Assembly (NCBI GenBank): GCA_016235165.1 | Contig: JACRLX010000002.1 | Coordinates: 62,001-126,000, forward strand | Length of the DNA stretch: 64,000 bases | Source of the DNA: Rhodocyclales bacterium | Lineage (GTDB): Bacteria; Pseudomonadota; Gammaproteobacteria; Burkholderiales; Rhodocyclaceae | Reading direction: 5' to 3' | Shown here: positions 314 through 60,300 of the stretch, one piece after another | Layout of the letters: the number at the start of each line of letters is the position of its first letter | Numbering within the stretch: the stretch's first letter is position 1 | Notes under the pieces: generated by a model | Seen by the model: the letters and a program-made list of their open reading frames with translations, nothing else | Databases searched by the model: none | What the model was told of the DNA's origin: nothing | Translations under genes and position numbers: made by a program

Positions 314-1003
314 TCAATTCGCGCCGCCACGCGCGAGTCGCTCCGCCGTGGTCAATGCCACCTTGTCGCGCACATAGACCGGCTGGGCGGCGGCGTAATC
401 CGGCGCCAGGCCTTGCGCGAAGCGAGGTGCCGCAAGGCGCAACACGGCCTCGGCGGTCGGCCAGGCATCGGCTTGCACGCCGAGCAGATCCGGCGCGCGA
501 CCGCACAGCAACTCGCCATAGGCCGCAAAGCCGTCGCCCACGCCCCAGGCCTGCTCGAAAGTCGGCGCTGGCGCCACGGCGGGAGCAACACAAATCGGCG
601 CCATGAGTTCCGTCACCTGGTTTCCGGATACCGCATAGCCGGCGCAATAGATCTCGTTCATGCGCGCGTCGAGGCAGGTCCATGCCCTGCACTTCCCGCT
701 GGCGAGCGCCAATGCCTCCAGGGTAGACACCGGCAGCAGCGGAATCCCAAGCCCCCAACCCAAGCCTTGCGCCACGCCGCAGGCGAGCCGCAAGCCGGTG
801 AAGCTGCCCGGCCCGGCGCCGAAGGCGATGCCATGCAGATCGGCCGGCCGTATCCCGCCCTGATCGAGCAGTTCATGGATCCACGGCAGCAGGTTTTGCG
901 AGCCGCCGTTGGGATGGTCGCCGCCACGCGACACACAACGGCCATCCTGCCAGAGCGCTACGGAAAGTTGCCGGGTCGCGGTCTCGATGCCAAGCAGATG
1001 CAT
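314..1003 (-). CDS. tsaB: tRNA threonylcarbamoyladenosine biosynthesis protein TsaB
   Basis: Partner of TsaD and TsaE in forming the N6-threonylcarbamoyl group of adenosine 37 in ANN-decoding tRNAs. The ASKHA-fold N-terminus (HLLGIETAT) and the family motif GAGPGSFTGLRL are clear. The protein is 229 residues from the ATG at 1003. A TTG at 1021 lies in frame but gives an unlikely N-terminal extension. The stop lies close to the rimI start, so translation is probably coupled. The gene carries one copy of the dispersed 22-bp repeat (560-581), read here as VAPAPTF. Confidence 0.92.
   Translation of the reverse strand: MHLLGIETATRQLSVALWQDGRCVSRGGDHPNGGSQNLLPWIHELLDQGGIRPADLHGIAFGAGPGSFTGLRLACGVAQGLGWGLGIPLLPVSTLEALALASGKCRAWTCLDARMNEIYCAGYAVSGNQVTELMAPICVAPAVAPAPTFEQAWGVGDGFAAYGELLCGRAPDLLGVQADAWPTAEAVLRLAAPRFAQGLAPDYAAAQPVYVRDKVALTTAERLARGGAN
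560..581 (+). repeat. Dispersed 22-bp repeat, copy 1
   Basis: Copy of the sequence AGTCGGCGCTGG followed by CGCCACGGCG. It differs from the commonest form at one base and lies inside tsaB. Confidence 0.75.
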
Positions 1004-1025
1004 GGGTCTTTGTCTCGGCAAGGGC

Positions 1026-1880
1026 CTATTTCCGGCCGCCGAGCAAGCCGCGCAGGGTTTCCTGCAGGTCCGCCGGAAGCAACACCGTCTTGGCGTTGTC
1101 CGAGCGCGCCAGATTGCCGATTACATTGACGTATTTTTCGCCGAGGATATAGCGCATCGGGCCCTCCTCGTCGCCGATCGCCGATGCAACCCGCCTGATC
1201 GACTCGGCGCTGGCATCGGCCAGGGTCACCTGCGCCTCGGCATTGAGCCGGGCAGCCTGAAGCTGCGCCTCGGCGTTCAGGATGGTGGCCTGCTTGTTGC
1301 CCTCCGCCTTGGTCACCATGGCCTTGCGCTCCCGCTCGGCGCTGGCCTGGGCCTCCATCGCGCGCTGCATCGATTCCGAGGGCTTGATGTCCTGGATCTC
1401 CACCGATTTGACGGTCAGGCCCCAGTCAATGGCCTCGTCGGCGATGCTCTCACGCAGCCGCGCCTTGATCTTGTCGCGGTTGGACAGGGCCTCGTCGAGC
1501 TGCATCTCGCCGATGATCGAGCGCAAGGTGGTCATGATCATGTTGCGGATCGCCTCCGAGAAATCGGTGACGCCGTATACCGCCTTGATCGGATCGGTGA
1601 CCTTGATGAAAGCGATCGCATTGGTCACGATCACCGCATTGTCCTTGGTGATCACTTCCTGTTCCTGCACATCGAGGATGATGTCCTTGGTCACCAGCTT
1701 GTAGCGCACCTGGTCCAGATAGGGAACGATGATGTTGAGTCCCGGATGCAGGGTACCGTGGTACTTGCCCAGGCGTTCGACGATCCATTCCTCGCCCTGG
1801 GGCACGATGCGCACGCCCTTGGCGATGGTAACGGCCACGAATACGAATATGGCGACAACGACGATGGCAATTTCGCCCAT
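1026..1880 (-). CDS. qmcA: SPFH/Band 7 membrane protein, QmcA/stomatin type
   Basis: Inner-membrane SPFH-domain protein of 284 residues, family of QmcA and stomatin-like proteins that form large membrane-organising oligomers and work with proteases such as FtsH. One N-terminal membrane segment (about residues 3-20) is followed by the band 7 domain (starting around VRIVPQGEEWIVERLGKYH, to about 190). A long alanine- and glutamate-rich helical region at about 180-240 is likely coiled coil. It is immediately downstream of an NfeD-family gene on the same strand, the standard pairing for this subfamily. Exact cellular role is not shown by the sequence. Confidence 0.9.
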   Translation of the reverse strand: MGEIAIVVVAIFVFVAVTIAKGVRIVPQGEEWIVERLGKYHGTLHPGLNIIVPYLDQVRYKLVTKDIILDVQEQEVITKDNAVIVTNAIAFIKVTDPIKAVYGVTDFSEAIRNMIMTTLRSIIGEMQLDEALSNRDKIKARLRESIADEAIDWGLTVKSVEIQDIKPSESMQRAMEAQASAERERKAMVTKAEGNKQATILNAEAQLQAARLNAEAQVTLADASAESIRRVASAIGDEEGPMRYILGEKYVNVIGNLARSDNAKTVLLPADLQETLRGLLGGRK

Positions 1881-1891
1881 GAATCACTCCT

Positions 1892-2344
1892 TCAGTATTT
1901 GCCAACCTTGAGCAATTGCCCGTCGACCGCCAGCACCCGCACCCGCTCGCCGGCGGCGATCGACTCGTCAGCCAGGCAGGGCCAGACATCGGAGCCCATC
2001 ACCGGCTTCTGGAAACGAACCTCGCCACGCCCGGAACTGACGCCCAGTGGCTCGACGGCGCGCACCAGCACGCCTATTTCACCCAGGGCTTCGTCAGCCT
2101 GCCCCGTGCGCGTTCCAGCCGCATCGCGACGGAACACGCGAAACCAGAGCACTGTCATCGCCACCGAGGCCAAGGTCCACAGCGCCACCTGGGTACTGAA
2201 TGCAAGGTCGGGAAGCAGCATCATGGCGAAACCGACCAGCAGGGCGCCAAGCCCGAACCAGATGACGAAGAAACTGGCAACGAACAACTCCAGCAGGCCC
2301 AGACCAAGCCCGAGTACCACCCAATGCCACCACGCGATTTCCAT
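1892..2344 (-). CDS. NfeD-family membrane protein
   Basis: 150-residue short NfeD protein (membrane-anchored OB-fold) that accompanies stomatin-like proteins. Three hydrophobic segments occupy roughly residues 6-30, 32-48 and 55-70. The remaining 75 residues form the soluble OB-type domain (GEIGVLVRAVEPLG...GERVRVLAVDGQLLKV). It is the first gene of a pair with the band 7 gene 11 bases downstream, suggesting a shared transcript. The product probably forms a membrane complex with the SPFH oligomer; this is inferred from the family and the neighbourhood. Confidence 0.85.
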   Translation of the reverse strand: MEIAWWHWVVLGLGLGLLELFVASFFVIWFGLGALLVGFAMMLLPDLAFSTQVALWTLASVAMTVLWFRVFRRDAAGTRTGQADEALGEIGVLVRAVEPLGVSSGRGEVRFQKPVMGSDVWPCLADESIAAGERVRVLAVDGQLLKVGKY

Positions 2345-2569: not shown

Positions 2570-2633
2570 GCGCTACCATTCGCTCGGCAAACCTTTCGCA
2601 GCATCAACACCACTCATCCTCAGGAGGTCATAC

Positions 2634-6712: not shown

Positions 6713-7734
6713 TTGGTTTTCTCCAGTGCGGCAAGCCGCTGTTCGAGGGCCCGGATTTTATCGGCCATGGCATCAAGATGGCGCAGGCGGGAAAAATTTC
6801 GCAGCCACTCGCCATGTTCCAGGAAAGGCACCGTGCCGCTGTATGCACCGGGTTTGGCTATCGACTTGGCCACCAGCGTGCCGGCGGAAACGTTGACGTC
6901 GTCGGCGAGGGTGAGATGCCCCAGGATGATCGCGCCGCCGCCCACGGTGCAGCGCCGGCCTATCGTCGCGCTTCCGGCGATGCCGACGCAACCGGCCATC
7001 GCCGTATGTGCGCCGATGCGAACGTTGTGACCGACCTGGATCTGGTTGTCCAGCTTGACGCCATCCTCGATCACTGTGTCGCCGAGGGCACCCCGGTCTA
7101 TCGTGGTACCGGCACCGATCTCGACGTCATCACCAATGAGCACGCGACCGGTTTGCGGAATTTTCACCCAGGTCGCATCGCTATCGCGGGCGAAGCCGAA
7201 ACCGTCGGCGCCGATCGCCGCGCCACTGTGGATCAGGCAGCGCTCGCCGATGCGGCAGCCGGCATACACGGCGACATTGGCCGCCAGCCGCGTTGCCGCC
7301 CCGATGACGGTGCCATTGCCGATGCTGCAGTTGGGCTCGATCACCACTCCCTCGCCAATCTCGACCCCAGGACCAATCCAGACATTCGCCCCGATGCTGG
7401 CACTGGCCGCAACGCTTCCTTCCACCACGGCCGAGGAATGCACGCCAGCTTGTGGCGCCGGCGGCGGATTCAGCCACTGCGCAACCCGGGCGAAGTACAG
7501 GTAGGGGTTGGGGGTCAGAATTGCCGCGTTCAGGGCACTAGCCAGCGGAGGCGCCATGATCACGGCGGAGGCACGCGTGTGTTCGAGCTGACCCCGGTAC
7601 CTTGGATTGGCGAGAAAGGCCAGGTCTCCCGGGCCAGCCGCATCCAGCGGCGCGATGCGAGAAATCGCCGTGTCGCCAGCGCCGACTATTTCTCCGCCCA
7701 GGCGGGCGACGATCTCGTCGAGCCGCAACTCCAC
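6709..7734 (-). CDS. lpxD: UDP-3-O-(3-hydroxyacyl)glucosamine N-acyltransferase
   Basis: Third lipid A enzyme, adding the N-linked hydroxyacyl chain. It has 341 residues: a uridine-binding N-terminal domain (1-100), a hexapeptide-repeat beta-helix (about 105-300) and a C-terminal helix ending in EQRLAALEK. The conserved VGHNVRIG segment carries the expected catalytic histidine. It contains a copy of the 22-bp repeat (7666-7687) near its N-terminus, read as VGAGDTAIS. It starts 11 bases after the skp stop. Confidence 0.96.
7666..7687 (-). repeat. Dispersed 22-bp repeat, copy 2
   Basis: Exact match to the commonest form (AGTCGGCGCTGG then CGACACGGCG) on the minus strand, inside lpxD. Confidence 0.8.
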
Positions 7735-13913: not shown

Positions 13914-14712
13914 CGTGGCCGGTAGCCGGCAACCCAAGAGTCGGCGCTGGCGACACGGCGTTTTCCGTCAATTGTTCGCTGGTGCGGCCGAAGCGGCGCT
14001 CCCGACGACGATAGGAAAGTACGGCGGCATCGAGCGCAGCGTCGTCGAAATCAGGCCACAGGGTATCGGTGAAATACAGCTCGCTGTAGGCCAGCTGCCA
14101 GAGCAGGAAGTTGCTGATCCGCTGCTCGCCACCGGTACGAATGAAGAGATCGGGTTCCGGCGCATAGGCCATGGCGAGATGTGGCGCCAGATCGGCCTCG
14201 CCGAATGCACCGACCTTCTCCGGGTGCGCCAGCGCGAGCTGGTTCATGGCTTGCAGGATGTCCCAGCGGCCGCCATAGTTGGCGGCGATGGTCAGCGTCA
14301 GGCGACTGTTGTTGGCCGTCAAGGCCTCGCCTTCGCGGATCAGGGCCACCAGCCGGGGCTCGAAGGCCGACAGGTCGCCAACGACCTTCAGTCGCACCGA
14401 GTTGGCGTGGAGCTTGCCGATCTCGCTTTGCAGCGCACTGACGAACAGATTCAGCAGGAAGGAGACTTCCTCGACTGGGCGGCGCCAGTTTTCCGAGGAA
14501 AAGGCAAACAGGGTCAGGTATTCGATACCGCGCGCAATGCAGGCCTTGACCATGGAACGCACGGTCTCGACACCGCGCTTGTGGCCGGCGACGCGCGGCA
14601 TGAAACGCTTCTTTGCCCAGCGCCCGTTGCCATCCATGATGATGGCCAGATGGCGCGGCACGGCGCCCACTTCCGGGATAGCCTGGGTCGAGCTGGTGAA
14701 TTTCCTTGGCAT
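13906..14712 (-). CDS. uppS: Undecaprenyl diphosphate synthase
   Basis: Cis-prenyltransferase that builds the C55 lipid carrier for peptidoglycan and O-antigen synthesis. It has 268 residues. The catalytic motif [11 protein letters not shown] starts at residue 26 (Asp27). The isopentenyl-diphosphate binding motif [15 protein letters not shown] and the downstream FTDTLWPDF are present. It carries a copy of the 22-bp repeat near its C-terminus (13939-13960), read as AVSPAPT. It lies between frr and cdsA, as in E. coli. Confidence 0.97.
13939..13960 (+). repeat. Dispersed 22-bp repeat, copy 3
   Basis: Exact match to the commonest form, antisense within uppS close to its 3' end. Confidence 0.8.
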
Positions 14713-36011: not shown

Positions 36012-36021
36012 GCTGTTCTCC

Positions 36022-36810: not shown

Positions 36811-36812
36811 GG

Positions 36813-37850: not shown

Positions 37851-37861
37851 GGCGAATCTCC

Positions 37862-38770: not shown

Positions 38771-38780
38771 TATTGGCCTC

Positions 38781-41119: not shown

Positions 41120-41161
41120 GACGTTTCCTTGCTTGCCTTATCCGTTCGACCCGCCGCGCGA

Positions 41162-41596
41162 TCAGGCCGGCGCGCCGAGTCCTATCGCCGCCAGGCCGGC
41201 GTGTGCGCACTCTTCGTCTTGGGCTTCGGAGGCACCGGAGACGCCGATACCGCCGATCCAGTCGTCGCCGACCCGCAGCGGCAGTCCGCCGCCGAAAACG
41301 ATCAGGCGCGGCTGGCTGGAGAAGCCGAATTTCATCCCCTCGTCGTGACCGATGGCGCCCATCCAGGCCTTGGTCGGAAAGCCGAAACTGGCGGAGGTAT
41401 AGGCCTTGTCGATGGCGATGTCGATGGAATGGATGAAGGCCCCCGGCATGCGCAGGAAGGCCATCAGGTTGCCGCCGCGATCCACCACCGCAGCATTGAT
41501 CTTCCAGCCCCGCCGCTCGGCGTGGGCAATAGCCGCGGCAACCGCGGCCTGTGCCGCGTCGCAACTGATGCCGGGGATGGCAGCAGTGACTTGCAC
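41162..41596 (-). CDS. HbpS/GlcG-family protein
   Basis: 144-residue protein of the heme-binding-protein-S/GlcG fold (formerly DUF336). The pattern VVDRGGNLMAFLRMPGA...IDKAYTSASFGFPTKAW is typical, as is the C-terminal VGDDWIGGIGVSGASEAQDEECA. Members have been linked to heme or cobalamin binding and occur next to oxygenase genes; what it does here is not known. It lies 2 bases before the end of the dioxygenase gene and inside the operon, so a role in iron supply or enzyme repair is conceivable. Confidence 0.85.
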   Translation of the reverse strand: MQVTAAIPGISCDAAQAAVAAAIAHAERRGWKINAAVVDRGGNLMAFLRMPGAFIHSIDIAIDKAYTSASFGFPTKAWMGAIGHDEGMKFGFSSQPRLIVFGGGLPLRVGDDWIGGIGVSGASEAQDEECAHAGLAAIGLGAPA

Positions 41597-41598
41597 GA

Positions 41599-42528
41599 TC
41601 AGGTCACCACCGAGAGGAAGGCGTCGTTGAGTTTGCGGTCATGGTAGAAAATGCCGCGACCAACTTCGTCGATGGTCCAGGTGATCGGCTTCCAGTCCGG
41701 GTAAGACGAGTAGCCGCCGCTGTAGGTTTCGAAGCGGTTGCCCGAGGGGTCGAAGGCGTAGATCGTGGTGCCGCGGGTAATGCCGTGGCGGGTCGGTCCG
41801 ATGTCGATGGTGACCTTGTTCATCGCCATGATGTCGGCCGCGCGCAGCACCTTCTCCCAGCTTTCGAGCTGGAAGGCGATGTGATGCAACTTGCCCGGCT
41901 CAGCATGGCGCACGAAGGCGAGGTCATGGGCCTTGGTGCTGCAGGAGAGCCAGATCGCGAGGTCGGTCTTGCCGTCCTCCAGCAGCACGTGCTCGACCAG
42001 ATAGAAGCCAAGCACGTCGACCAGGATCGCCTGCGCCTTCTCGATGTCGGGACCGTATAGCAGGGCGTGATCCATGCGCAACGGCGCAATGCCGTGCTCC
42101 GCGGCCGGCGTCCATGCCTCGGGATTCAGGTAGGGCATGCCATTGCCGACGTCCGTCTTTTCGGCATACAGCTCGATCTTGTGGCCGGTGGGCAGTTCGA
42201 AGCGAACGCGCTCGCCGGTTTCGAGCAGTTCACCGGCGGCAATGCGCTCGGTGGCCAGACCATAGGCGCGCAGGTCAGCGTCGAACTTGTCGAGCGCGGC
42301 CTTGCCATCCACCTTGAAGGCAAAAAAATCTACGCCGGCCATGTCGGCCTGGCGCAGGATCACGCTGTTGTGATCGCGCTCGTCCCATGCCTTGAAATAG
42401 ACGCGGCCCTGCTTGTCGCGACCGGTCTCGACCAGGCCGAGCACGTCTCCGTAAAACTTCACGCTTTCTTCCAGGTCAAGCACACGCAGTTGGATGTGAC
42501 CCGGACGCAGCACTCCCTTCATTGCCAT
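41599..42528 (-). CDS. dmpB: Catechol 2,3-dioxygenase
   Basis: Extradiol dioxygenase opening catechol (or alkylcatechols) to 2-hydroxymuconate semialdehyde. It has 309 residues with two vicinal-oxygen-chelate domains. Iron ligands are His154 (RMDHALL), His215 (KLHHIAF) and Glu267 (RFETYSGGY). Second-sphere His201, His248 and Tyr257 match XylE. It is preceded by a ferredoxin gene that would reactivate its oxidised iron. Confidence 0.97.
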   Translation of the reverse strand: MAMKGVLRPGHIQLRVLDLEESVKFYGDVLGLVETGRDKQGRVYFKAWDERDHNSVILRQADMAGVDFFAFKVDGKAALDKFDADLRAYGLATERIAAGELLETGERVRFELPTGHKIELYAEKTDVGNGMPYLNPEAWTPAAEHGIAPLRMDHALLYGPDIEKAQAILVDVLGFYLVEHVLLEDGKTDLAIWLSCSTKAHDLAFVRHAEPGKLHHIAFQLESWEKVLRAADIMAMNKVTIDIGPTRHGITRGTTIYAFDPSGNRFETYSGGYSSYPDWKPITWTIDEVGRGIFYHDRKLNDAFLSVVT

Positions 42529-42587
42529 GTAATGTTCCCTCCTTGGTTTGGTTCGACTGAAAATTCCCGCCAGCGACGGCTACGGAG

Positions 42588-42935
42588 CTAGCCCGGCATT
42601 GGGGATTGCGCGGCTCCAGCTTCTGGCGCACCCCGAGACACACTTCTTTGGATCTTTCCGATTACCTTCAGCCGCAGGTCGCTGGTAGCCCATATCCGGC
42701 AGGCGAGGACGCGATGACTCTCTTCATCCTCGACGCTGATGTGCGCACGGCTCATCACCCGCTTGCGATAGGTGCCGGACAGGACCTCGATCTTGCAAAC
42801 GCCGCACCCGCCGCCACTGCATCCGACCGGAATTCCCTTCCGGCCCAATGCGGCCATGCCTTCGAGCACGGTGTTCCGGTCCGAGGTACGGAAGACTTCG
42901 TTCGTGTTTTCGATCGTGACGGTGAAATTGGCCAT
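42588..42935 (-). CDS. dmpQ: XylT-like [2Fe-2S] ferredoxin
   Basis: Plant-type ferredoxin of 115 residues that re-reduces inactivated Fe(III) catechol 2,3-dioxygenase. Cluster cysteines are Cys39, Cys44, Cys47 (C-x4-C-x2-C in GCSGGGCGVC) and Cys79 (VLACRIW). I start at the ATG at 42935 (MANFTVTIEN). It is the first gene of the meta operon, with a probable promoter 30-60 bases upstream. Confidence 0.92.
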   Translation of the reverse strand: MANFTVTIENTNEVFRTSDRNTVLEGMAALGRKGIPVGCSGGGCGVCKIEVLSGTYRKRVMSRAHISVEDEESHRVLACRIWATSDLRLKVIGKIQRSVSRGAPEAGAAQSPMPG

Positions 42936-42965
42936 TTCGACGTGGTGGCAGGTATCCTGAACAGG

Positions 42966-42995
42966 ACTGTATGCGCGTTCACCCATACGGTCCAA
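42966..42995 (-). promoter_or_regulatory. Promoter of the meta-cleavage operon
   Basis: On the minus strand, TTGGAC (42995-42990), an 18-base spacer and TACAGT (42971-42966). A LysR-type dyad is 20 bases upstream of the -35 box, so its centre falls near -64 from the expected start. The 12 bases ATTGGACCGTAT around the -35 box recur in the ABC importer promoter. Confidence 0.6.
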
Positions 42996-43015
42996 TGCTA
43001 TATTTGCATCGATCG

Positions 43016-43030
43016 ATACCTTCTAGGTAT
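43016..43030. promoter_or_regulatory. LysR-type operator dyad, meta operon/lysR
   Basis: ATACC-TTCTA-GGTAT, a T-N11-A dyad in the divergent region between the ferredoxin and lysR genes. It can serve activation of the meta operon and autoregulation of lysR, whose start is 43 bases away. Confidence 0.7.
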
Positions 43031-43072
43031 GATCTACCATCCACTGCCACGAGATACCGTCGTCCCGAAATC

Positions 43073-43969
43073 ATGGAACTTCGACAACTCAGGTATTTTG
43101 TCGCACTTGCCGAGGAGCTCAACTTCGGCCGCGCCGCGGAAAAGCTCCACATCTCCCAACCGCCGCTGACGCGCCAGATCCAGCAGCTTGAAAGTGACGT
43201 AGGCGCGCGTCTGTTCACTCGCAGTTCGCGCGGCGTTGAACTGACCCAAGCCGGCATCGCACTGCTCGACGACGCCCGGCGCATTCTCGATCAGATCGGC
43301 GTTGCCAAGGAACGCGCCGGGAAGTTCGGCCTCGGCCGGATCGGACGCCTCGATGTCGGCATTTTCGGTTCAGCCATCCTCAACCATATCCCACGGCTCC
43401 TGCTGCAATTCCGCCATCGCTATCCGGAAGTGCAGATCGCCCTGCACGAACTGACCAAGGCGGAGCAAATCGCCGCACTGCGCGAAAAGCGACTGACCAT
43501 CGGCTTCAACCGGCACGTTACCGTCGAACCAGACATCATGGTCGAAACGGTATTCCTGGAGCCTCTCCTGGTCGCACTGCACAGCAAGCATCCGCTGGCG
43601 CGGCACAAGGCGATACGCATCTCCGAGGTAGTGGACGAACCGCTGGTACTCTATCCGAGCAATACCCGCCCCGGCTTTGCCGACGACGTGATGGCGCTGT
43701 TCCGGACCGAGGGCGTGAAACCCAGGGTGACACAGGAAGTGACCGACGTGGTCACGGCGGTCGCACTCGTGGCCAGCGGCTTTGGCATCTGCATCACGCC
43801 GGAAGCTGCGAGCACCTTGCGTCTTCCAGGTGTGGTCTATCGCCCGGTCAAGGCCACACCACCGCCGACCATCGACCTTGCCTGCCTGTACCGGCGCGAT
43901 GACGAGTCACCCATTCTCGCCGCCTTCCTGGAGGTCGTAAGGAAATATGGGGCCGGACGGAGCGCGTAG
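43073..43969 (+). CDS. LysR-family transcriptional regulator
   Basis: 298-residue LysR regulator. The N-terminal winged helix is LRQLRYFVALAEELNF then AAEKLHISQPPLTRQI; the rest is the periplasmic-binding-like effector domain resembling CatR/BenM-type aromatic regulators. It is divergent from the meta-cleavage operon. Identical operator dyads at 43016-43030 and 44109-44123 suggest it activates both the meta operon and the ABC importer. The inducer is probably a pathway intermediate, but this cannot be read from the sequence. Confidence 0.92.
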   Translation: MELRQLRYFVALAEELNFGRAAEKLHISQPPLTRQIQQLESDVGARLFTRSSRGVELTQAGIALLDDARRILDQIGVAKERAGKFGLGRIGRLDVGIFGSAILNHIPRLLLQFRHRYPEVQIALHELTKAEQIAALREKRLTIGFNRHVTVEPDIMVETVFLEPLLVALHSKHPLARHKAIRISEVVDEPLVLYPSNTRPGFADDVMALFRTEGVKPRVTQEVTDVVTAVALVASGFGICITPEAASTLRLPGVVYRPVKATPPPTIDLACLYRRDDESPILAAFLEVVRKYGAGRSA

Positions 43970-44108
43970 CAGGCTCCTGCCACCGAGCGCAGCTCGCATG
44001 GCGCAGCATGTGGGACAACCGAATCCGCTTCCGGCATTTTGGGGCGCCATGCCTCCGCCAATTGGCGCCGCCAATCGACGGCTCCGAATCCGAGTCCGGA
44101 AGTACTCA

Positions 44109-44123
44109 ATACCTTTTCGGTAT
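44109..44123. promoter_or_regulatory. LysR-type operator dyad, ABC importer
   Basis: ATACC-TTTTC-GGTAT, identical at 13 of 15 positions to the dyad upstream of the meta operon. Extra GTATTG units follow at 44141 and 44151, suitable as activation half-sites. Confidence 0.7.
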
Positions 44124-44143
44124 TGACTTTGTACGAAATGGTA

Positions 44144-44173
44144 TTGGACCGTATTGAGTTTAATTCCTAAGCT
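44144..44173 (+). promoter_or_regulatory. Promoter of the ABC importer operon
   Basis: TTGGAC at 44144-44149 lies exactly 20 bases after the operator dyad, the same spacing as in the meta operon. The -10 region (TAAGCT at 44168) is poor, as in many activator-dependent promoters. Confidence 0.5.
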
Positions 44174-44234
44174 GCCCTCCTCAATCCTGCCGAACAAAAG
44201 GGCGTGGTGTCAACAAACAAGAGGAGAAACAGCG

Positions 44235-45524
44235 ATGAGCAAGGTCAATCTCGAAAAGGCAACGGTCAACTTCAGCCGTCGCAGCGCGATCAAGGCGCTC
44301 GGCGGTCTGACTGCCGGTTCCATATTGCCGACCCCGTGGGTGCATGCCCGGAACAATACCATCAAGATCGGCTACGTCAGCCCGCAGACCGGACCTCTCG
44401 CGGTATTCGGCGAGCCGGACGCGTTTACGCTAGGCGAGATGAAGAAAGCCCTGGCCGGCGGGATCAAGGTCGGCGGCAAGAGCTATGCCGTCGAATTCGT
44501 GGTCAAGGATTCGCAGTCGAACTCCAACCGCGCGGCCGACGCTGCCTCCGAACTGATTCTCAAGGACAAGGTGAATATCGTCGTCGCCGGTTCGACGCCC
44601 GCGACCACCAACCCGGTGGCCGACCAGTGCGAACTCAACGGCGTGCCCTGCGTCACCAACGACACGCCCTGGCAGCCACACTTCTTCGGTCGCGGCGGCG
44701 ATCCGAAAAAGGGTTTCGAGTGGACCTACCACTTTTTCTGGGGCCTTGAAGATGTGATCGGCGTGTTCGCCAACCTGTGGACCCAGATTCCGACCAACAA
44801 GGCCATCGGCTCACTGTTCCCCAACGATTCCGACGGCAATGCCTGGGGCGATGCCAAGCTCGGCTTTCCGCCGGTACTGGCGCAGAAGGGCTTCAAGCTG
44901 GTGGACAAGGGACGCTTCCAGTCGCCGGCCGATGACTTTTCGGCCTACATCGCCGAATTCAAGAAGAACAACGTTGAGATCGTCACCGGCGTCTTGCCAC
45001 CGCCGGACTTCGCCAACTTCTGGTCGCAGGCCGGCCAGCAAGGCTTGAAACCAAAGATTGTCACTGCCGCCAAAGCGACCGAGTTTCCCGCTGCGATCCA
45101 GTCCTTCGGGCCGCGCGCCGAAGGTCTCACGGTCGAGGTCTGGTGGTCGCCGGTGCACCCTTTCAGTTCCAGCCTCAACGGCATGTCGTCCACTGCTCTA
45201 GCAGCGGCTTACACCAAGGCCACTGGCCGTCCCTGGGCAATGCCACTGGCGTTCAAGCATTCTCTGTTCGAAGTCGCGCTCGACGCGTTGAAGCGCTCGG
45301 CCGACCTGAAGCCGGAATCGATCCGCAACGCGATCCGCGATACCGATCTGAAGACCATCGTCGGCCCGCTCAACTTCAAGAAGGGTCCGGTGCCGAACAT
45401 CGCCAAAACCCCGTTGGTCGGCGGTCAGTGGAAAAAGGCCGGCAAGGGCTTCGAACTGGTGGTGGTCGAGAACAGCCTGGCGCCGATGGTACCGGTCAAA
45501 GACAGGCTCGATCCGATCAAGTAA
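44235..45524 (+). CDS. ABC transporter substrate-binding protein, branched-chain amino acid/aromatic type
   Basis: 429-residue periplasmic binding protein of the LivJ-like family. The N-terminus carries a twin-arginine signal, SRRSAIKALGG at 14-24, with probable cleavage after VHA near residue 38, so export may use the Tat route. The mature part shows IKIGYVSPQTGPLAVFGE and typical two-lobe pattern. A strong ribosome binding site (AGGAG) precedes the ATG at 44235. Linked to a meta-cleavage pathway by shared operators, it probably binds an aromatic acid or similar growth substrate; the ligand is inferred. Confidence 0.9.
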   Translation: MSKVNLEKATVNFSRRSAIKALGGLTAGSILPTPWVHARNNTIKIGYVSPQTGPLAVFGEPDAFTLGEMKKALAGGIKVGGKSYAVEFVVKDSQSNSNRAADAASELILKDKVNIVVAGSTPATTNPVADQCELNGVPCVTNDTPWQPHFFGRGGDPKKGFEWTYHFFWGLEDVIGVFANLWTQIPTNKAIGSLFPNDSDGNAWGDAKLGFPPVLAQKGFKLVDKGRFQSPADDFSAYIAEFKKNNVEIVTGVLPPPDFANFWSQAGQQGLKPKIVTAAKATEFPAAIQSFGPRAEGLTVEVWWSPVHPFSSSLNGMSSTALAAAYTKATGRPWAMPLAFKHSLFEVALDALKRSADLKPESIRNAIRDTDLKTIVGPLNFKKGPVPNIAKTPLVGGQWKKAGKGFELVVVENSLAPMVPVKDRLDPIK

Positions 45525-45575
45525 GGCAGGTGCCAGCACAAGGACGACAGCGCTCCGGCCGCCGTCTGCCTCGAC

Positions 45576-46298
45576 ATGAAACTGCTCGAACTCAAGGGCG
45601 TATCCAAATCCTACGGCGCCCTCAAGGTGACCGACGACCTCACGTTCTCGCTCGACAAGGGCGAGGCGCTGGGCATCATCGGTCCCAATGGGGCGGGGAA
45701 AACCACGCTCTTCAATCTGGTGACCGGCAACGTGCGGCCGGATGCGGGCACGGTGCTGTTCAACGGCCGTGACGTGACCAGGCTTTCCGCCTCGGTGCGC
45801 TGCCACATGGGCATCGGCCGCTCCTATCAGGTGCCGCATCCGTTCGGCGGCATGACGGTGCTCGAGAACGTGCTGGTCGGCGCCACCTTCGGCGCCGGGC
45901 ATTCCGAGCGTGCCGGCACGCCGCTGGCGATGGCGGCGCTGGAACGTACCGGCCTGCTGGCCAAGGCCAACCGCCTGGCCGGTTCGCTGCCGCTGCTCGA
46001 CCGCAAGCGCCTCGAACTGGCGCGGGCCCTGGCCACCGAGCCGGACCTGCTGCTGCTCGACGAAATCGCCGGCGGCCTGACCGAGCACGAGGTGGCGGAA
46101 CTGATCGAATCGATCCAGGAGATCCGCGCCGACGGCACCTCCATCATCTGGATCGAGCACATCGTGCATGCCCTGATTGCGGTGGTGGATCGCCTGCTGG
46201 TGATCAATTTCGGCAGCCTGCTGACCCAGGGCGAACCGGCGGCGGTGATGGCGAGTCCGGAAGTGCAGGAAATCTATCTGGGGATCGCGGTCGAATGA
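45576..46298 (+). CDS. ABC transporter ATP-binding protein, LivG type
   Basis: 240-residue ATPase. Walker A GPNGAGKTT is at 36-44 and Walker B LLLLDE in the usual place. The signature loop reads LPLLDRKRLELARAL where most LivG proteins have LSYGQQRRLE, so the ABC signature is diverged though the following RLELARAL is kept. It is the first of two ATPases in a complete LivFGHMJ-like set; the next gene overlaps by four bases. Confidence 0.92.
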   Translation: MKLLELKGVSKSYGALKVTDDLTFSLDKGEALGIIGPNGAGKTTLFNLVTGNVRPDAGTVLFNGRDVTRLSASVRCHMGIGRSYQVPHPFGGMTVLENVLVGATFGAGHSERAGTPLAMAALERTGLLAKANRLAGSLPLLDRKRLELARALATEPDLLLLDEIAGGLTEHEVAELIESIQEIRADGTSIIWIEHIVHALIAVVDRLLVINFGSLLTQGEPAAVMASPEVQEIYLGIAVE

Positions 46299-46993
46299 CT
46301 CTGCTCGAAGCCCGCGGCGTCACCGCGTTTTATGGCGACTTCCAGGCCCTCTACGGCATCGACCTGAAGGTGGAGGAGGGCGAGACCGTGGCCGTGATCG
46401 GCTCCAACGGCGCCGGCAAGTCGTCCTTCCTGCGCACCCTGACGGGGCTGCAGTCGTCGGCGCCGGAGAGCATCCGTTTCCATGGCGAGCCCATCGGCGG
46501 CCTGCCGGCGCATCGCATCGTGGCGCTGGGTCTGGCCATGGTGCCGGAAGGCCGGCGATTGTTTCCCAGCCTGACGGTGGAAGAGAACCTGCTGGTCGGC
46601 GCCTATTCGAAACGCCCCGGACCGTGGAATCTGGAGCGCCTGTACGCGATGTTCCCGATTCTCGGCGAGCGGCGAAACAATCCCGGCACCGCGCTGTCGG
46701 GCGGACAGCAGCAGATGGTGGCCATCGGCCGGGCGTTGATGTCGAATCCGCGCCTGCTGTTGTGCGACGAGATCTCGCTGGGGCTGGCGCCGGTGATCAT
46801 CAAGGACATCTACGACGCGCTGCCCGGCATCAAGGCCGAGGGCACCTCGGTGCTGGTGGTGGAACAAGACGTCGGCCAGGCGATGAAGGTGGCGGACCGC
46901 CTCTACTGCTTTCAGGAAGGCCGCGTGTCGCTCGAAGGCCGGCCCGGCGAACTGGGGCGCGAGCAGATTTCGCTCGCCTATTTCGGAGTCTGA
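46295..46993 (+). CDS. ABC transporter ATP-binding protein, LivF type
   Basis: 232-residue ATPase with Walker A GSNGAGKSS, a full signature LSGGQQQMVAIGRAL and Walker B LLLCDEISLGLAP, typical of LivF. It pairs with the preceding ATPase as the energising unit of the importer. It overlaps that gene by four bases and is followed by the LivH-type permease three bases later. Confidence 0.94.
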   Translation: MTLLEARGVTAFYGDFQALYGIDLKVEEGETVAVIGSNGAGKSSFLRTLTGLQSSAPESIRFHGEPIGGLPAHRIVALGLAMVPEGRRLFPSLTVEENLLVGAYSKRPGPWNLERLYAMFPILGERRNNPGTALSGGQQQMVAIGRALMSNPRLLLCDEISLGLAPVIIKDIYDALPGIKAEGTSVLVVEQDVGQAMKVADRLYCFQEGRVSLEGRPGELGREQISLAYFGV

Positions 46994-46996
46994 GCC

Positions 46997-47869
46997 ATGG
47001 GTGAGTGGATCAACACCATTCTGCAAGGTCTCCTGCTCGGCGGCCTGTATTCGCTGTTCGCCACAGGGCTGGCGCTGTCCTTCGGCGTCATGCGCATGAT
47101 CAACATTGCCCATGGCGATTTTGCGATCCTGGCTGCATTTGCCGCCATCGCCGTGGTCGAGCCGCTGGGCCTGAGTCCGTTTCTGGTGTTGCTGGTGATC
47201 GTGCCGCTGATGGGCGTTTTCGGCTATCTGCTGCAACGCCTGATCCTCAACCGCACGCTGGGTCAGGACATCCTGCCGCCGCTGCTGGTGACCTTCGGCT
47301 TTTCCATCGTCATCCAGAACCTGCTGCTGGTAACGTTTTCCGCCGATACGCGCAGCCTGAATGTCGGCGAGCTGGGCACGGCCAGCCTGGCACTGAGCGG
47401 GGAGGTCGCGGTCGGCGTGCTGCCGCTGATCATCATGGCGGTGGCGGTGGGCGTGCTGCTCGGCCTGCAATGGCTGTTTTCGGCCACGCCCCTGGGCCGG
47501 GCTTTCCGGGCTGCGTCGGACGACCGCGAGGCGGCGCAGTTGATGGGCATCGACAACCGCCATATCTACGGCCTGGCGATGGCACTGGCAATGTCCATCG
47601 TGGCGATAGCCGGAGTATTCCTCGCCATCCGCGCCAATATTGCGCCGTCCGAAGGCCCGGCACGCTTGTTGTACGCATTCGAGGCGGTAATCATTGGCGG
47701 CCTCGGTTCGTTCTGGGGCACGCTGGTTGGCGCCATCATTCTTGGTGTCGCGCAGACGATCGGTGGCAAGTTCGATCCGGGCTGGGGCATCCTCGCCGGA
47801 CATCTGGCCTTCCTGGCGGTGCTGGTGGTGCGGCCCAACGGTCTGTTCGCCCGCACCCGCGATCGATAG
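46997..47869 (+). CDS. ABC transporter permease, LivH type
   Basis: 290-residue inner-membrane permease with about eight hydrophobic segments. It begins WINTILQGLLLGGLYSLFATG, the hallmark of LivH. The coupling-helix region AFRAASDDREAAQLMGID and the C-terminal GLGSFWGTLVGAIILG are conserved. It forms the translocation pore with the LivM-type protein encoded next. Confidence 0.94.
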   Translation: MGEWINTILQGLLLGGLYSLFATGLALSFGVMRMINIAHGDFAILAAFAAIAVVEPLGLSPFLVLLVIVPLMGVFGYLLQRLILNRTLGQDILPPLLVTFGFSIVIQNLLLVTFSADTRSLNVGELGTASLALSGEVAVGVLPLIIMAVAVGVLLGLQWLFSATPLGRAFRAASDDREAAQLMGIDNRHIYGLAMALAMSIVAIAGVFLAIRANIAPSEGPARLLYAFEAVIIGGLGSFWGTLVGAIILGVAQTIGGKFDPGWGILAGHLAFLAVLVVRPNGLFARTRDR

Positions 47870-47881
47870 CAAGGCATCTTG

Positions 47882-48919
47882 GTGAACGCCTCCCATTCCA
47901 CACCCATCTCCGCGCTTGTCGTCCGACGCGGCACCCGCACCAGTCGGGTCGGGGTCGTCGTCGGTCTGATGCTGCTATTGGCGATCATCGGCGCGCCTTG
48001 GTGGGCCGAGCGTTCGAGCCAGCGCCTGCTGGCCGAATTCCTCTACGTGCTGGCGCTGGCCCAAATGTGGAACCTGCTGGCCGGCTATGGCGGTTTGCTC
48101 TCGGTGGGACAACAGGGCTACATCGGCATCGGCGGATACTGCCTGGTGGTGCTGGGCCTGGAGTTCGGCGTGAATCCCTTCCTCATCGTGCCGTTGGCCG
48201 GAGTAGTGACGGCGTTGGTGGCGATACCGACGGCGGCGGCGCTGTTCCGTTTGCGCGGCGCCTATTTCGCGGTCGGCACCTGGGTCGTGGCCGAAGTATT
48301 CCGCCTGCTGGTGGCCAATACGGCCAGTGTAGGTGGCGGCTCGGGCACCTCGATCACTCGCACCGTGATGGGCATTCCGGCCTGGTGGCGCGAATCGACC
48401 ACGCTGTGGATAGCGCTGGCTCTCGGTGCCGGCACCACGCTGGCGGTGTACCTCCTGTTGCGCTCGCGGCACGGCTTGGCGCTGACGGCGGTGCGCGACA
48501 GTGAGCCGGCGGCGGAAAGCCTGGGCATCTCGGTATCGCGTGTTAAGTGGTTTGTCTACATCGCGTCGGCCGCCGGTTGCGGCATGGTCGGGGCGCTGAT
48601 CTTCATCACCAAGCTGCGTATCTCTCCGGAGGCTGCGTTCTCGATGGATTGGTCCGCCGCCATGTTCTTCGCCGTGATCATCGGCGGCATCGGCACTATC
48701 GAAGGCCCGATCATCGGCACCTTGGTGTATTTCCTTTTGCGCGAATTCCTCAGCGACTACGGCAGCTGGTATTTGATCGTGCTGGGCTCGATCGCCGTCG
48801 CCTTCATGCTCTGGATTCCGTGTGGTATGTGGGGGCTGGTGGCGAGCCGGTTTGATCTTCATTTTTTCCCGGTGCAGCGCCGCGTAGGTAATCTGCCAGT
48901 CGAGGAGCAAACCCGATGA
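47882..48919 (+). CDS. ABC transporter permease, LivM type
   Basis: 345-residue permease with about nine membrane segments. The LivM pattern is seen in NLLAGYGGLLSVGQQGYIGIGGY, RLRGAYFAVGTWVVAEVFR and the coupling segment LTAVRDSEPAAESLGI. I use the GTG at 47882 with AAGG upstream; a TTG three bases earlier is also in frame. It completes the importer. Its stop overlaps the hemerythrin gene start. Confidence 0.92.
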   Translation: MNASHSTPISALVVRRGTRTSRVGVVVGLMLLLAIIGAPWWAERSSQRLLAEFLYVLALAQMWNLLAGYGGLLSVGQQGYIGIGGYCLVVLGLEFGVNPFLIVPLAGVVTALVAIPTAAALFRLRGAYFAVGTWVVAEVFRLLVANTASVGGGSGTSITRTVMGIPAWWRESTTLWIALALGAGTTLAVYLLLRSRHGLALTAVRDSEPAAESLGISVSRVKWFVYIASAAGCGMVGALIFITKLRISPEAAFSMDWSAAMFFAVIIGGIGTIEGPIIGTLVYFLLREFLSDYGSWYLIVLGSIAVAFMLWIPCGMWGLVASRFDLHFFPVQRRVGNLPVEEQTR

Positions 48920-49485
48920 GGCCCGCAATGCGCGTGTTGGCGAAAGAGCATCTGGCGCTGCGCGCCGTGGCACGGATCGTGGCCATCGAAGCAGAAGTGC
49001 TACGCCGTGACGGGCGGGTCGATCTCGACCTGTTGGAGGACATCGCCGCCTATATCGCGGAGTTCCCCAACCGAATTCATCACCCGAAGGAAGAGGATTT
49101 CCTCTTCCGCCACATGCGAATACGGGCACCACAGCGTTGCGGCGAGATCCTCGACCGCCTGCTGGCCGAACATGTCGAGGAGAGCGAAAGCATCGGGACG
49201 TTTCGCACGGCGCTTGCCGCCTACCGCAATGGCCTACCGGCTGCCGACACGCATCTGGCAAATGTCGCGGCATCGTATGCAAAGTACCTTGACCGCCATA
49301 TCGAGTTCGAGAATACCCAGGCGTTTCCATTGGCGACGGAAGTCCTGCAGGAATCGGACTGGGCGGAGATTGATGCGGCTTTTCTGGCCAATGACGATCC
49401 ACTGGTGACAGGCGACCAGGACTCCCGATACACCGAACTGCACCGTCGAATTCTGCGAATGGGTGCACTGCCCCCCGGGCTCTGA
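48916..49485 (+). CDS. Hemerythrin HHE domain protein
   Basis: 189-residue four-helix protein with candidate di-iron ligands His12 (KEHLALR), His55/His56 (RIHHPKEEDF), Glu60, His86 (LAEHVEES), His128 and Glu132 (DRHIEFENTQAFP). It probably binds oxygen, nitric oxide or iron in the cytoplasm. The ATG overlaps the LivM-type stop by four bases, so it is coexpressed with the importer and, through the shared operator, with an iron-dependent dioxygenase. A role in oxygen or iron handling during aromatic breakdown is an inference. Confidence 0.85.
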   Translation: MRPAMRVLAKEHLALRAVARIVAIEAEVLRRDGRVDLDLLEDIAAYIAEFPNRIHHPKEEDFLFRHMRIRAPQRCGEILDRLLAEHVEESESIGTFRTALAAYRNGLPAADTHLANVAASYAKYLDRHIEFENTQAFPLATEVLQESDWAEIDAAFLANDDPLVTGDQDSRYTELHRRILRMGALPPGL

Positions 49486-49512
49486 ATCATTCAAGTCCAG
49501 GCCAGGGCCGAG

Positions 49513-49659
49513 TCAGGGCGCGAACGCGGCAATGTGGATGCCGGGCGTGACGCGCGCCTGCGCCAGGTACATGGAGCTGAATTTCCCGGCGCCGATGAGC
49601 AGTACGCGCACCGGATTGCCATCGTCCGCCCGGCGTTACAGCAGTCGATGAAAGTTCAT
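49513..49659 (-). pseudogene. Remnant of an NAD(P)-binding oxidoreductase (homoserine-dehydrogenase-like)
   Basis: A 49-codon stretch starts at an ATG overlapping the ftsB stop (ATGA) and reads MNFHRLL, an in-frame TAA, then GNPVRVLLIGAGKFSSMYLA followed by QARVTPGIHIAAFAP before a second stop. This is the N-terminal Rossmann strand of SAF-domain homoserine-dehydrogenase-like proteins. The rest of the protein is absent and the hemerythrin gene of the opposite strand lies next to it. Nonsense mutation plus loss of the remainder makes this a decayed gene. Confidence 0.65.
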
Positions 49660-57615: not shown

Positions 57616-59432
57616 ACTTTCCGCTGATCCCCGCCGAACTCGCGTTCGCCGGGGACGGCACTCCGTTTTCGCCGCGCTATGGCGACATCTACCACTCCAG
57701 CCAGGGCGGCCTGGAGCAAGCCCGCCACGTCTTTCTGGCCGGCAACGATCTGCCCGCGCGCTGGATCGACCGCCAGCGCTTTGTCATCCTCGAAACCGGC
57801 TTCGGCATCGGCCTCAACTTCCTCGCCACCATGCAGGCGTGGCGGGCCACTACAGGCCCAAGCAGCCGGCGCCTGCATTACATCGCGATCGAGAAACATC
57901 CCTTCCGGCGGGATGACCTGGGGCAAGTGCACCGTGGCTGGCCCGAGCTGGCTCCGTTCGCCACCGAACTTCATGAGCTGTGGCCCCTGCCCTTGCCTGG
58001 CCTGCATCGCCTGGATTTCGGCAATGTGATCCTGACCCTCGGCTTCGGTGATGGCGCGGAGGTACTGCCCCAGCTCGGCCTGGTTGCCGACGCCATCTAC
58101 CTCGACGGGTTTGCACCGGACCGCAACCCGGATCTCTGGTCGGATGAGATCATGGCCCAATTGCGTCGTCTTGCCACCGCAGGTACAACGCTGGCCACCT
58201 GGACCACCGCAGGAGAGGTCCGTCGCCGTCTCGCCAGCGCCGACTTTGTCGTCGAACGCAGGCCCGGGTTCGGCAGCAAGCGCGAAATGCTGGTCGGACG
58301 TCGCCCCGGAACTTCCGCCGCACGAAGCTGGTCGCCACGCCGCATTGCTGTTGTCGGTGCCGGCATCGCCGGCGCTGCGACCGCCCATGCCCTCGCCCGG
58401 CGCGGACACCGGGTCAGCGTACTCGACGCCGCCGCCACTGCCGCCAGCGGCGCATCGGGCAACCTTGCCGGTGTGTTTCGCCCCCTGCCTTCGCTTGACG
58501 ATGGCAAGCTGGCGCGCCTGCTGCGCGCCGGTTTTTTGCTCGGCCGACGCTGGTTCGCCTCGCTTCCCGGCACACGCCTGGGCTGGACCGGAGTCCTGCA
58601 TGTCGCCCGCGACGCCCGGCACGAGCAAACCCAGCGGCGCATTGTCGACGAACATTGCCTGCCCGCCGACTATTGCCGCTTCGTCACGCGCGAGGAGGCT
58701 TCGCAAATGGCGGGCTCGCCCGTCGCCCTGGGCGGCTGGTGGTTTCCGCGGGCGGGCTGGATCAATCCTCCCAGCCTTTGCCGCGCCTTGCTGGCGGACA
58801 TCGATTGCCGCTACGACTTTCCCGTCGCCAAGCTGCAAAGACATCCGCAAGGTTGGCGCGTATCCAGCCACGACGAGGAAATCGAAGCCGACGAACTGGT
58901 GCTTGCCAATGGCATTGGCGCACCGGCACTGGCGCCCGATTTTTGCTTGCCGATCCGCCCCGGACGGGGCATGGTCAGCCATCTGCCCGAGGCCGCCACG
59001 CCGGCCATGGATATCGTCGCCACCCGTCTGGGATATGTGACGCCCCCGGTCGACGGGCTGCGCTGCGCCGGCGCCACCTTGCAGGCCGATGATCTCGATG
59101 GCACTCCGCGACTGGCCGACCATGTCGAGAACCTGTTCCGCCTCGACATGCTGCTGCCGGGCTTTGCCCAGGGGATCGATCCGGCACGGCTGGACGGCCG
59201 CGTTTCCTTTCGCCCGATGTCGCCCGATCGCTTGCCGCTGGTCGGCCCGCTGGCTGCCGGCGAAGGCCTGTGGATCAACGACGGGTTTGGCGCAAGAGGC
59301 CTGGTCTTTGCATCGATCTGCGCCGAGCTGCTGGCCAGCCAGATCGACGACGAACCGCTGCCGCTGGAGACTGACCTGGTCCGCTCTCTGGCGCCGGCTC
59401 GCTTCCCGAAACGCGGCTCGGCACGCCGCTGA
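57612..59432 (+). CDS. mnmC: tRNA 5-methylaminomethyl-2-thiouridine biosynthesis bifunctional protein MnmC
   Basis: Completes mnm5s2U at the tRNA wobble base. It has 606 residues in two enzymes. The N-terminal methyltransferase domain shows the SAM motif [10 protein letters not shown] at 61-70, [10 protein letters not shown] at 164-173 and FGSKREM at 220-226. The C-terminal FAD oxidase shows GAGIAG at 249-254 in [20 protein letters not shown]. It starts at the ATG at 57612 overlapping the lysS stop. A copy of the 22-bp repeat encodes ASADF at about 208-212. Confidence 0.95.
58224..58245 (-). repeat. Dispersed 22-bp repeat, copy 7
   Basis: AGTCGGCGCTGG then CGAGACGGCG on the minus strand, one base different from the commonest form; inside mnmC. 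Confidence 0.78.
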
Positions 59433-59439
59433 TCGCCTT

Positions 59440-59456
59440 GTAACAGATGTAACAGT
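59440..59456 (+). promoter_or_regulatory. Tandem TGTAACAG repeat upstream of the glycine-zipper gene
   Basis: TGTAACAG-A-TGTAACAG, two direct copies with a 9-base period, 74 bases before the start codon. Tandem half-sites of this kind suit an OmpR-type response regulator; which one is unknown. Confidence 0.4.
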
Positions 59457-59529
59457 TGATTGCGCTTGTCCCGCGCCGTCAATCGGCGGCGTTAATGTGC
59501 TCATGCGTCGTTCACTTCAGGAGCACATC

Positions 59530-60300
59530 ATGGAAGCCTCACCGTCTCTCCCCGTCATCAGTCCGGTTGCCGCGCCGTCCGCACATCCTCTGCTGCTTGT
59601 TGCCGCTGCGGCGGTAACGATCTTCAGCCTTGCCGGCGTTTCCTATCTTGCCGGCTGGTTGCCCGGCCCCGCGACGCAGGCAAATGAAAATCGTCCGCTC
59701 CCTGCCAACACGGCGGCTGCCGCTCCGGCTGTCAGCCCGCCGATTTCCGTCACCCAATCCGTCAACCTGCCGCAGGAAAAACCCAAGGCGGCAAGCCGCG
59801 CGACGGAAACTGCGGCCCCTGCCGTGCGTCGCAGCGTGGCAAGCCCGGTCGCGCGCACGCCGGAACCGGTCTCCATGCCCACAATCGCCGTGGCGCCAGC
59901 GCCGACTCCCGTGGCCGCGCCGGTAGCGGCGATCTGCCGCGAATGCGGCGTGGTGGAATCCGTGCGCGAAGTCGCGGTCGAGGCCAAGGGCAGCGGCGGC
60001 GGTGCCGTTGCCGGTGGCATCGTCGGCGGCGTCATCGGCAACCAGTGGGGACGCGGCGCAACCCGCGACATCGCCACCGTGCTAGGTGCCATCGGCGGCG
60101 CCTATGCCGGCAATCACATCGAGAAATCGATCAAGGAAAGCAAGCGTTATGACATCAGCGTTCGCTTCGAGGACGGCAGCACGCGCAGCTTCAGCAGCGA
60201 CACCCCACCGACATGGCATGTCGGCGACCGCGTGCGGCTTCAGAACGGTTTGCTGACCAGTGGCGGCGGCAGGTCCTCGATGGATCTGGGAAGTATCTGA
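59530..60300 (+). CDS. Glycine-zipper 2TM domain envelope protein
   Basis: 256-residue protein with an N-terminal membrane anchor (about 20-42, LLLVAAAAVTIFSLAGVSYL). A long alanine/proline-rich periplasmic linker (50-140) leads to a glycine-zipper domain similar to SlyB and the rickettsial 17-kDa antigen (GAVAGGIVGGVIGNQWGRG, GAIGGAYAGNHIEKS at about 158-200). The last 50 residues form a small beta domain. A good ribosome binding site (AGGAG) precedes the ATG at 59530. A role in envelope integrity is inferred from the family. Its 3' end overlaps the convergent gene by 61 bases. Confidence 0.82.
   Translation: MEASPSLPVISPVAAPSAHPLLLVAAAAVTIFSLAGVSYLAGWLPGPATQANENRPLPANTAAAAPAVSPPISVTQSVNLPQEKPKAASRATETAAPAVRRSVASPVARTPEPVSMPTIAVAPAPTPVAAPVAAICRECGVVESVREVAVEAKGSGGGAVAGGIVGGVIGNQWGRGATRDIATVLGAIGGAYAGNHIEKSIKESKRYDISVRFEDGSTRSFSSDTPPTWHVGDRVRLQNGLLTSGGGRSSMDLGSI
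59886..59907 (-). repeat. Dispersed 22-bp repeat, copy 8
   Basis: AGTCGGCGCTGG then CGCCACGGCG on the minus strand, identical to copy 1; read in the linker of the glycine-zipper protein as AVAPAPT. Confidence 0.78.

Follow-up and report, generated by a model that had tools for sequence, protein, structure and literature searches.

The stretch of DNA considered here, called the window, comprises 64,000 nucleotides from a Rhodocyclales bacterium (C8:62001-126000 of GenBank assembly GCA_016235165.1, which has 4,472,647 bases in 57 contigs and is 99.99% complete). It contains eight copies of a 22-bp word, AGTCGGCGCTGGCGNNACGGCG, on both strands and inside genes of several kinds, and we describe here the anatomy, distribution, and evolution of this word, a candidate uptake signal of natural transformation. 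(G, g, f, C, and L numbers are our handles for genomes, genera, families, contigs, and loci.) A preliminary description of the window had given the coordinates and strands of the eight copies, and all of them are borne out:

560..581, + strand: exact copy inside tsaB (gene 314-1003, - strand); peptide AVAPAPT
7666..7687, - strand: exact copy inside lpxD (gene 6709-7734, - strand), residues 16-23; peptide VGAGDTA
13939..13960, + strand: exact copy in the C-terminal tail of uppS (gene 13906-14670, - strand); peptide AVSPAPT
28201..28222, - strand: copy with one mismatch, inside an acyl-CoA dehydrogenase gene (27907-29016, + strand)
28518..28539, + strand: exact copy, the second in acyl-CoA dehydrogenase gene 27907-29016; peptide VGAGDTA
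34588..34609, - strand: exact copy inside a DEAD-box RNA helicase gene (33203-35125, + strand); peptide AVPPAPT
58224..58245, - strand: exact copy in mnmC (57612-59432, + strand), between its two enzyme domains; peptide LASADF
59886..59907, - strand: exact copy inside a glycine-zipper gene (open frame 59530-60300, + strand)

Seven of the eight copies are exact, and the copy at 28201 has a single mismatch; 100 dinucleotide shuffles of the window give a mean of 0.06 matches and a maximum of 1. The core AGTCGGCGCTGG is unchanged in 8/8 copies, as had been claimed. The gene names first proposed (TsaB, LpxD, UppS, acyl-CoA dehydrogenase with two copies, DEAD-box RNA helicase, MnmC, and a glycine-zipper protein) were correct, as were the frame-dependent peptides AVxPAPT, VGAGDTA, or xxSADF. 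Copy 59886 was assigned to its gene by reading the open frame 59530-60300 by eye; the gene finder had started this gene too late. Copies 7666 and 28201 fold better than shuffled sequences, and the other six fold no better.

Abundance and anatomy of the word in the genome

A search of the complete genome at ≤3 mismatches had been proposed as a check on the repeat. The 4.47-Mb genome contains 770 such matches, 380 forward and 390 reverse, while the reversed pattern used as a control gives 11 (5 and 6 by strand), so the copy number is well above expectation. Beyond these totals, the genome was studied on stretches amounting to 862 kb and later to 1.004 Mb. In the 862 kb, there are 45, 53, 39, 20, and 25 sites with 0, 1, 2, 3, and 4 mismatches, respectively, followed by 93 with 5 mismatches and 481 with 6, which is background (98 and 575 in the control). 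Because the histogram meets background only from 5 mismatches on, the 182 sites with 0 to 4 mismatches are a distinct population. Among 12-mers with ≥25 copies in this DNA (0.86 Mb), AAAGTCGGCGCT is the most overrepresented, at 202 times its third-order Markov expectation, and no other 12-mer family in the 862 kb comes near this value. The repeat is real. It is slightly longer than first written: A/G-A-A is favored before the word and A after it. It consists of two blocks, RAAAGTCGGCGCTGGCG(R)NACGGCGA, with a spacer that favors a purine followed by any base.

At ≤4 mismatches, the 1.004 Mb contain 210 sites, of which 146 are genic, 57 lie outside genes, 6 are at gene edges, and 1 was dropped at the end of a stretch. 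Since the gene finder is crude and starts some genes late, this count overstates the intergenic share; with the longest possible gene starts, the same sites divide into 158 genic, 46 outside, and 6 edge sites. The density is 1.6 to 1.7 sites per 10 kb within genes and 8.6 to 9.5 between them, i.e., 5 to 6 times higher outside genes. Genic sites have the orientation of the gene in 77 cases and the opposite orientation in 69, and 137 of the 146 fall in four reading frames (peptides VGAGxTA, AVxPAPT, xxASADF, and xSALA). The frame that gives Ser-Arg-Arg-Trp is used only twice.

The spacing of sites is near random (206 intervals; Kolmogorov-Smirnov test against the exponential distribution, p 0.05; variance/mean per 10 kb, 0.93), and closely spaced sites are rare, with 4 of 178 intervals shorter than 400 bp versus ~14.5 expected. 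Close inverted pairs like those in Neisseria terminators were looked for and rejected, as the smallest spacing is 122 bp. Strand has no significant tie to GC skew (p 0.09), so a replichore bias of the type seen with Chi or with FtsK orienting polar sequences (KOPS) is not found, nor is strand significantly tied to chromosome half in the closed genome of congener G002 (p 0.24, with the origin assumed near base 1). G002 has 69 and 67 exact copies on its two strands, spread over at least 2.9 of its 3.8 Mb, and the 100 of 136 places listed give no sign of a restricted chromosomal domain.

Conservation and turnover of sites

When the 210 sites were compared with four congeners, 21 could be aligned with G018 (19 kept and 2 gapped), 9 with G006 (6 kept, 1 absent, and 2 gapped), 11 with G002 (7 kept, 1 absent, and 3 gapped), and 9 with G030 (7 kept, 1 absent, and 1 gapped). 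The identities of fixed bases, spacer, and flanks are 0.958, 0.737, and 0.831 for G018; 0.921, 0.857, and 0.774 for G006; 0.925, 0.375, and 0.751 for G002; and 0.944, 0.750, and 0.758 for G030, with spacer values that rest on 14 to 38 bases per comparison. That is, the fixed bases are 92 to 96% identical, versus 75 to 83% for the flanks. A first all-against-all comparison of 90 sites (53 kept, 9 absent, and 28 gapped) was discarded, since the motif itself had been used to retrieve many of its loci.

Two sites could be aligned with 47 kb of the poor carrier G016, and 1 and 5 sites between this genome and G037, which belongs to another genus. None of these is kept, which indicates that the places of sites turn over between genera. 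Site 13939 is readable in 28 congeners, most of which have a recognizable copy in a linker of varying length; G016 and G025 have no copy there, and four congeners have a longer form.

In ~0.4 Mb of DNA from noncarriers and poor carriers, orthologues were found for 13 of the 146 genic sites. In these orthologues, identity is 37% for the residues encoded at the site, versus 68% for the whole protein. It had been asked whether homologues without the word lack exactly those codons; 9 of the 13 orthologues are ungapped at the site, and 4 are gapped. Based on the mostly ungapped orthologues and the divergent residues at the site, substitution in segments that tolerate change seems to be the main origin of copies. 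The identity of the fixed bases, the use of four frames, and the contrast of 37% with 68% also sustain the earlier claim that conservation acts on the DNA and not on the protein, with copies at linkers or termini.

Distribution among genera and altered spellings

In a first survey of 81 genomes with the word as found in this genome (≤3 mismatches), 30 of 30 congeners carry it, with 95 to 824 copies (G016, 95; G021, 230; G025, 305; G022, 824). Among 18 other genera of the family, each represented by one genome, G037 has 830 copies, G048 has 375, G043 has 94, and the rest have 2 to 14; the 32 genomes from other families have 0 to 8. A second survey, with a degenerate pattern (≤2 mismatches), covered 395 genomes of the family out of a larger group, and 8 of 68 genera (g1, g8, g14, g19, g70, g77, g78, and g96) have at least one genome with ≥200 copies. 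The counts are 258 to 731 in 18 of 19 genomes of g19, 307 to 558 in 4/4 of g78, and 300 to 476 in 9/9 of g96. Signals are weak in g98 (1 to 56 in 6 genomes), g55 (54 and 6), g88 (25), g73 (22), and g16 (21 and 5), and there is a slight excess of the word in g10, g18, and g85. No genome of another family exceeds 16 copies (242 of 250 genomes of the order, ≥85% completeness). Exact matches occur in at least 119 stretches from named genomes. The 80 listed are mostly from Rhodocyclaceae, Rhodocyclales, and Sulfuritalea metagenome-assembled genomes; they also include Rugosibacter and Sulfurisoma and a few labeled, as given, Burkholderiaceae, Casimicrobiaceae, Thiobacillus, Propionivibrio, or Gammaproteobacteria. 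The NCBI taxonomy places Sulfuritalea, Rugosibacter, and Sulfurisoma in the Sterolibacteriaceae.

De novo word counts reveal altered spellings in neighboring genera. In 200 kb of G037, AGTCGGTGCTGG has 20 copies, versus 14 for the spelling of this genome. In 37 kb of G043, the counts give AGTTGGTGCTGG, and 6/6 listed sites resemble AGTTGGTGCTGGTGACACGCCG; the matches in G043 rise from 94 with the first survey's word (limit, 3 mismatches) to 603 with the degenerate word (limit, 2). In 51 kb of G045, which came partly from contigs picked for matches, AGTCGACG is the reading at 5 of the 10 sites, a weak signal because this genome has few sites. The same counts found no such word in G047 (200 kb) or G035 (80 kb), and G016 (47 kb) has no other uptake-like word. 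Dialects, a hallmark of uptake sequences, are therefore present in G037 and G043 and weakly in G045.

Three genomes have isolated copies or few. G301, a member of g19, has 1 match only, yet ComEC and DprA are present, and either loss or another spelling might account for this. G059 (family f12; L325-L329) has four near-exact copies with an AAA flank and is otherwise at background; these copies are perhaps in transferred genes. G047 (g18), a genome without an enriched word, has three exact copies (C1 near 1807611, 4957515, and 5002087).

Competence genes and accessory DNA

ComEC is found in 34/34 genomes examined, and DprA is above the cutoff in 32 of the 34. The genome studied here encodes two pilins of the ComP-type family PF16732, one of them with 151 residues and an isoelectric point of 9.4. 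The low count in G016 (95 copies) could not be put down to lost competence, since this lineage has both ComEC and DprA.

The longest site-free gap in the stretches studied (C17:278332-319947, 41.6 kb) lies within a surface-glycan locus, in which genes for NeuB, UDP-GlcNAc 2-epimerase, a DegT aminotransferase, and a cytidylyltransferase were confirmed. A gap of this length has an estimated probability of 206 x exp(-41.6/4.78), or ~0.03. The window also has a site-free block:

35645..49520, no strand: copy-free block of ~14 kb, unaligned to the compared stretches of G018, G006, and G030; catechol meta-cleavage aromatic-degradation cluster

Another unaligned block, of 11.6 kb, has 1 site. Among 99 bins of 10 kb, those with low GC or atypical codons are poorer in sites (Spearman coefficients of 0.32, p 0.001, and 0.23, p 0.02). 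In the comparison with G006, the site densities are 1.65 and 1.49. The glycan-locus gap, the window block, and the bins point toward scarcity of the word in recently acquired DNA; the 11.6-kb block, the comparisons with G006 and G002, and the copies in phage genes (see below) point the other way.

A candidate uptake signal and its alternatives

We consider it likely that, in this clade, the word serves natural transformation as an uptake signal, akin to the DNA uptake sequences (DUS) of Neisseriaceae and the uptake signal sequences (USS) of Pasteurellaceae; the resemblance lies in anatomy and evolution, and we file the word as a candidate. This reading is supported by the abundance of the word and the word itself, its occurrence on both strands, its spread with few close pairs, its greater density outside genes, the position of genic sites in divergent linkers, the constraint on its fixed bases, its restriction to a clade, its altered spellings, and the site-free gap at the surface-glycan locus; comEC is present as well, and so, with few exceptions, is dprA. 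The two-block word would be bound in extracellular DNA by a receptor on the cell surface, for which a minor type IV pilin is the likeliest candidate, and the pilus would pull the bound DNA in; ComEC would pass one strand, which DprA and RecA would recombine. DNA bearing a good copy would be taken up and recombined more often, and copies that arose by chance base changes would spread by recombination and persist at places where the host sequence can accommodate them. Of the three options that the preliminary description put forward without choosing among them, an uptake signal fits best, a site for segregation or a nucleoid protein is less likely, and an intragenic mobile repeat is unlikely.

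Several observations weigh against an uptake signal. ComEC and DprA were rejected as markers of carriers because they are equally common in noncarriers, and DprA is missing in the carrier G001 (83% complete) and weak, below the cutoff, in the rich carrier G005 (99%). PF16732 was rejected as a marker as well, since the 73 genomes with a match, out of 81, include both carriers and noncarriers, and this survey singled out no receptor. Adjacent sites are co-oriented slightly beyond chance (117 same versus 89 opposite), and the spacer in the G006 comparison (14 bases) is conserved no less than the flanks. Against G002, it is the unaligned DNA that is richer in sites (2.46 versus 2.14 per 10 kb). 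Exact copies also occur in at least 120 IMG/VR stretches; the first exact site is inside a predicted gene in 85 of the 120 listed, and of 10 proteins scanned from these site-bearing genes, 8 have a PHROG match, including a terminase large subunit, methyltransferases, and an anti-repressor. Since phage genes carry the word, its presence extends to foreign DNA, and phage DNA failed as a motif-free control. With one site per locus subtracted, the viral stretches have ~61 further sites per Mb, versus 137 in motif-retrieved genome loci, and some of the viral contigs may represent prophages that have been in carrier genomes for a long time.

The strongest alternative, which we regard as rather unlikely, is a dispersed site for a clade-specific chromosomal protein, serving nucleoid organization, segregation, or a Chi-like mark of self against nucleases and defense systems. 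Like Chi and KOPS, the word is conserved, nonpalindromic, and distributed over the chromosome, and it has hundreds of conserved sites; its presence in host phages would be expected of a protective mark, and the mild clustering of orientations fits too. Unlike Chi, KOPS, and matS, however, it is longer, neither test of strand bias was significant, no restricted domain was seen in G002, and its spelling differs between neighboring genera. Such chromosomal proteins, moreover, usually need far fewer than the ~20 near-fixed bases seen here at each of hundreds of sites.

We give much less weight still to a short mobile repeat inserting into genes and intergenic DNA, similar to repetitive extragenic palindromic (REP) elements with their REP-associated tyrosine transposases (RAYT) or to miniature inverted-repeat transposable elements. 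Hundreds of short dispersed copies, the intergenic excess, the occasional longer form that contains a hairpin insert, and gaps at the site (2/21, 2/9, 3/11, and 1/9 in the congeners, 4/13 in the orthologues, and 28/90 in the motif-biased set) are consistent with such an element. In contrast to REP elements, however, the copies are nonpalindromic, unpaired, and mostly genic, 6 of 8 in the window fold no better than shuffles, and places are kept between species, with most comparisons ungapped (19/21 ungapped and kept in G018; similarly in G006, G002, and G030). The Y1 transposase (PF01797), present in 12 of 20 genomes, is absent in 6 of the 17 strong carriers searched. Finally, the idea that the word simply follows from codon usage, from composition, or from conservation of a peptide, which the preliminary description had itself raised and which uneven frame use (favoring VGAGxTA, AVxPAPT, and xxASADF) might suggest, is refuted by reversed-pattern and Markov controls far below the observed count, by the greater density of the word in intergenic DNA, and by relatives without it.

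The candidate uptake signal can be compared with both known kinds. DUS, as characterized in two papers (PMC3630211, PMC5031613), have many short copies on both strands, are tolerated within genes but commoner outside them, and form dialects that follow genera, with some members lacking an obvious word. The word described here is likewise found on both strands, tolerated in genes, denser outside them, divided into genus dialects, and without an obvious counterpart in some members of the family; its host, like the Neisseriaceae, belongs to the Betaproteobacteria and has pilins of the family of ComP, the DUS receptor. It differs from DUS in being an unrelated word of ~22 to 25 bases in two blocks rather than 12 bases, in having hundreds of copies rather than thousands, and in lacking close inverted pairs. 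The DUS core 5'-CTG-3' does occur within it, but a 3-mer match is often expected by chance, and de novo counts give a different word and did not recover the DUS word ATGCCGTCTGAA or its dialects. The USS is the 9-base AAGTGCGGT (PMC5031613). The two systems share a dispersed word, weaker extra positions beyond the core, and dialects, and they differ in the word and in the class of bacteria. USS copies lie mostly inside genes, as here. The extensions of USS are A+T-rich, whereas the word described here has a second, G+C-rich block.

No uptake sequence is reported for this family in the literature searched, and the 12-mer is absent from the paper texts searched (preprints and most subscription papers were outside the scope of both searches). 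To our knowledge, tags for the uptake of self-DNA are so far established in only two other bacterial families. If the candidate is genuine, a further family with an unrelated word would mean that such tags evolve repeatedly, a fresh system would be available for the study of word-receptor coevolution, and natural transformation would be indicated in largely uncultured bacteria of freshwater, groundwater, and sediment. The altered spellings in neighboring genera make a search for the receptor by covariation possible. More tentatively, and as a possibility rather than an expectation, this could be a third independently evolved bacterial language of self-DNA uptake, with a two-block word that exceeds the DUS and the USS core in length and at least two further dialects, that belongs to environmental Betaproteobacteria and also tags integron cassettes; if so, integron gene capture and uptake by transformation would act as one system there.

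An integron array and longer forms of the word

An integron cassette array of 6.1 kb (L055:1-6122 and L460; JALHPU010000019.1, Sulfuritalea sp. bin.273; G646, which has the same counts as G022) has two complete attC-like sites, L055 1904-1974 and 5177-5246. The word occurs in it 9 times, always on the same strand; some of the copies are in similar cassettes, so that not all are independent, and this high density may reflect only noncoding DNA. Strand counts are unequal in G012 (286/367) and in G022 (357/467), in the latter perhaps because of one-sided integron arrays.

In the longer forms, a hairpin-like insert divides the word right after AGT, e.g., AGTTCCCNNNGGGACGCA...GCGCTGG. They are found in this genome on C13 near 34983, 158535, 246265, and 290946 and on C17 near 139045, and elsewhere at L219, L223, L228, L237, and G006 C176:51063. 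The long hairpin forms were considered as a parent element and judged to be secondary, with five or six of them versus 210 plain sites in 1.0 Mb. At C13:290941, the gene in this genome has 7 extra residues where G047 shows the plain word.

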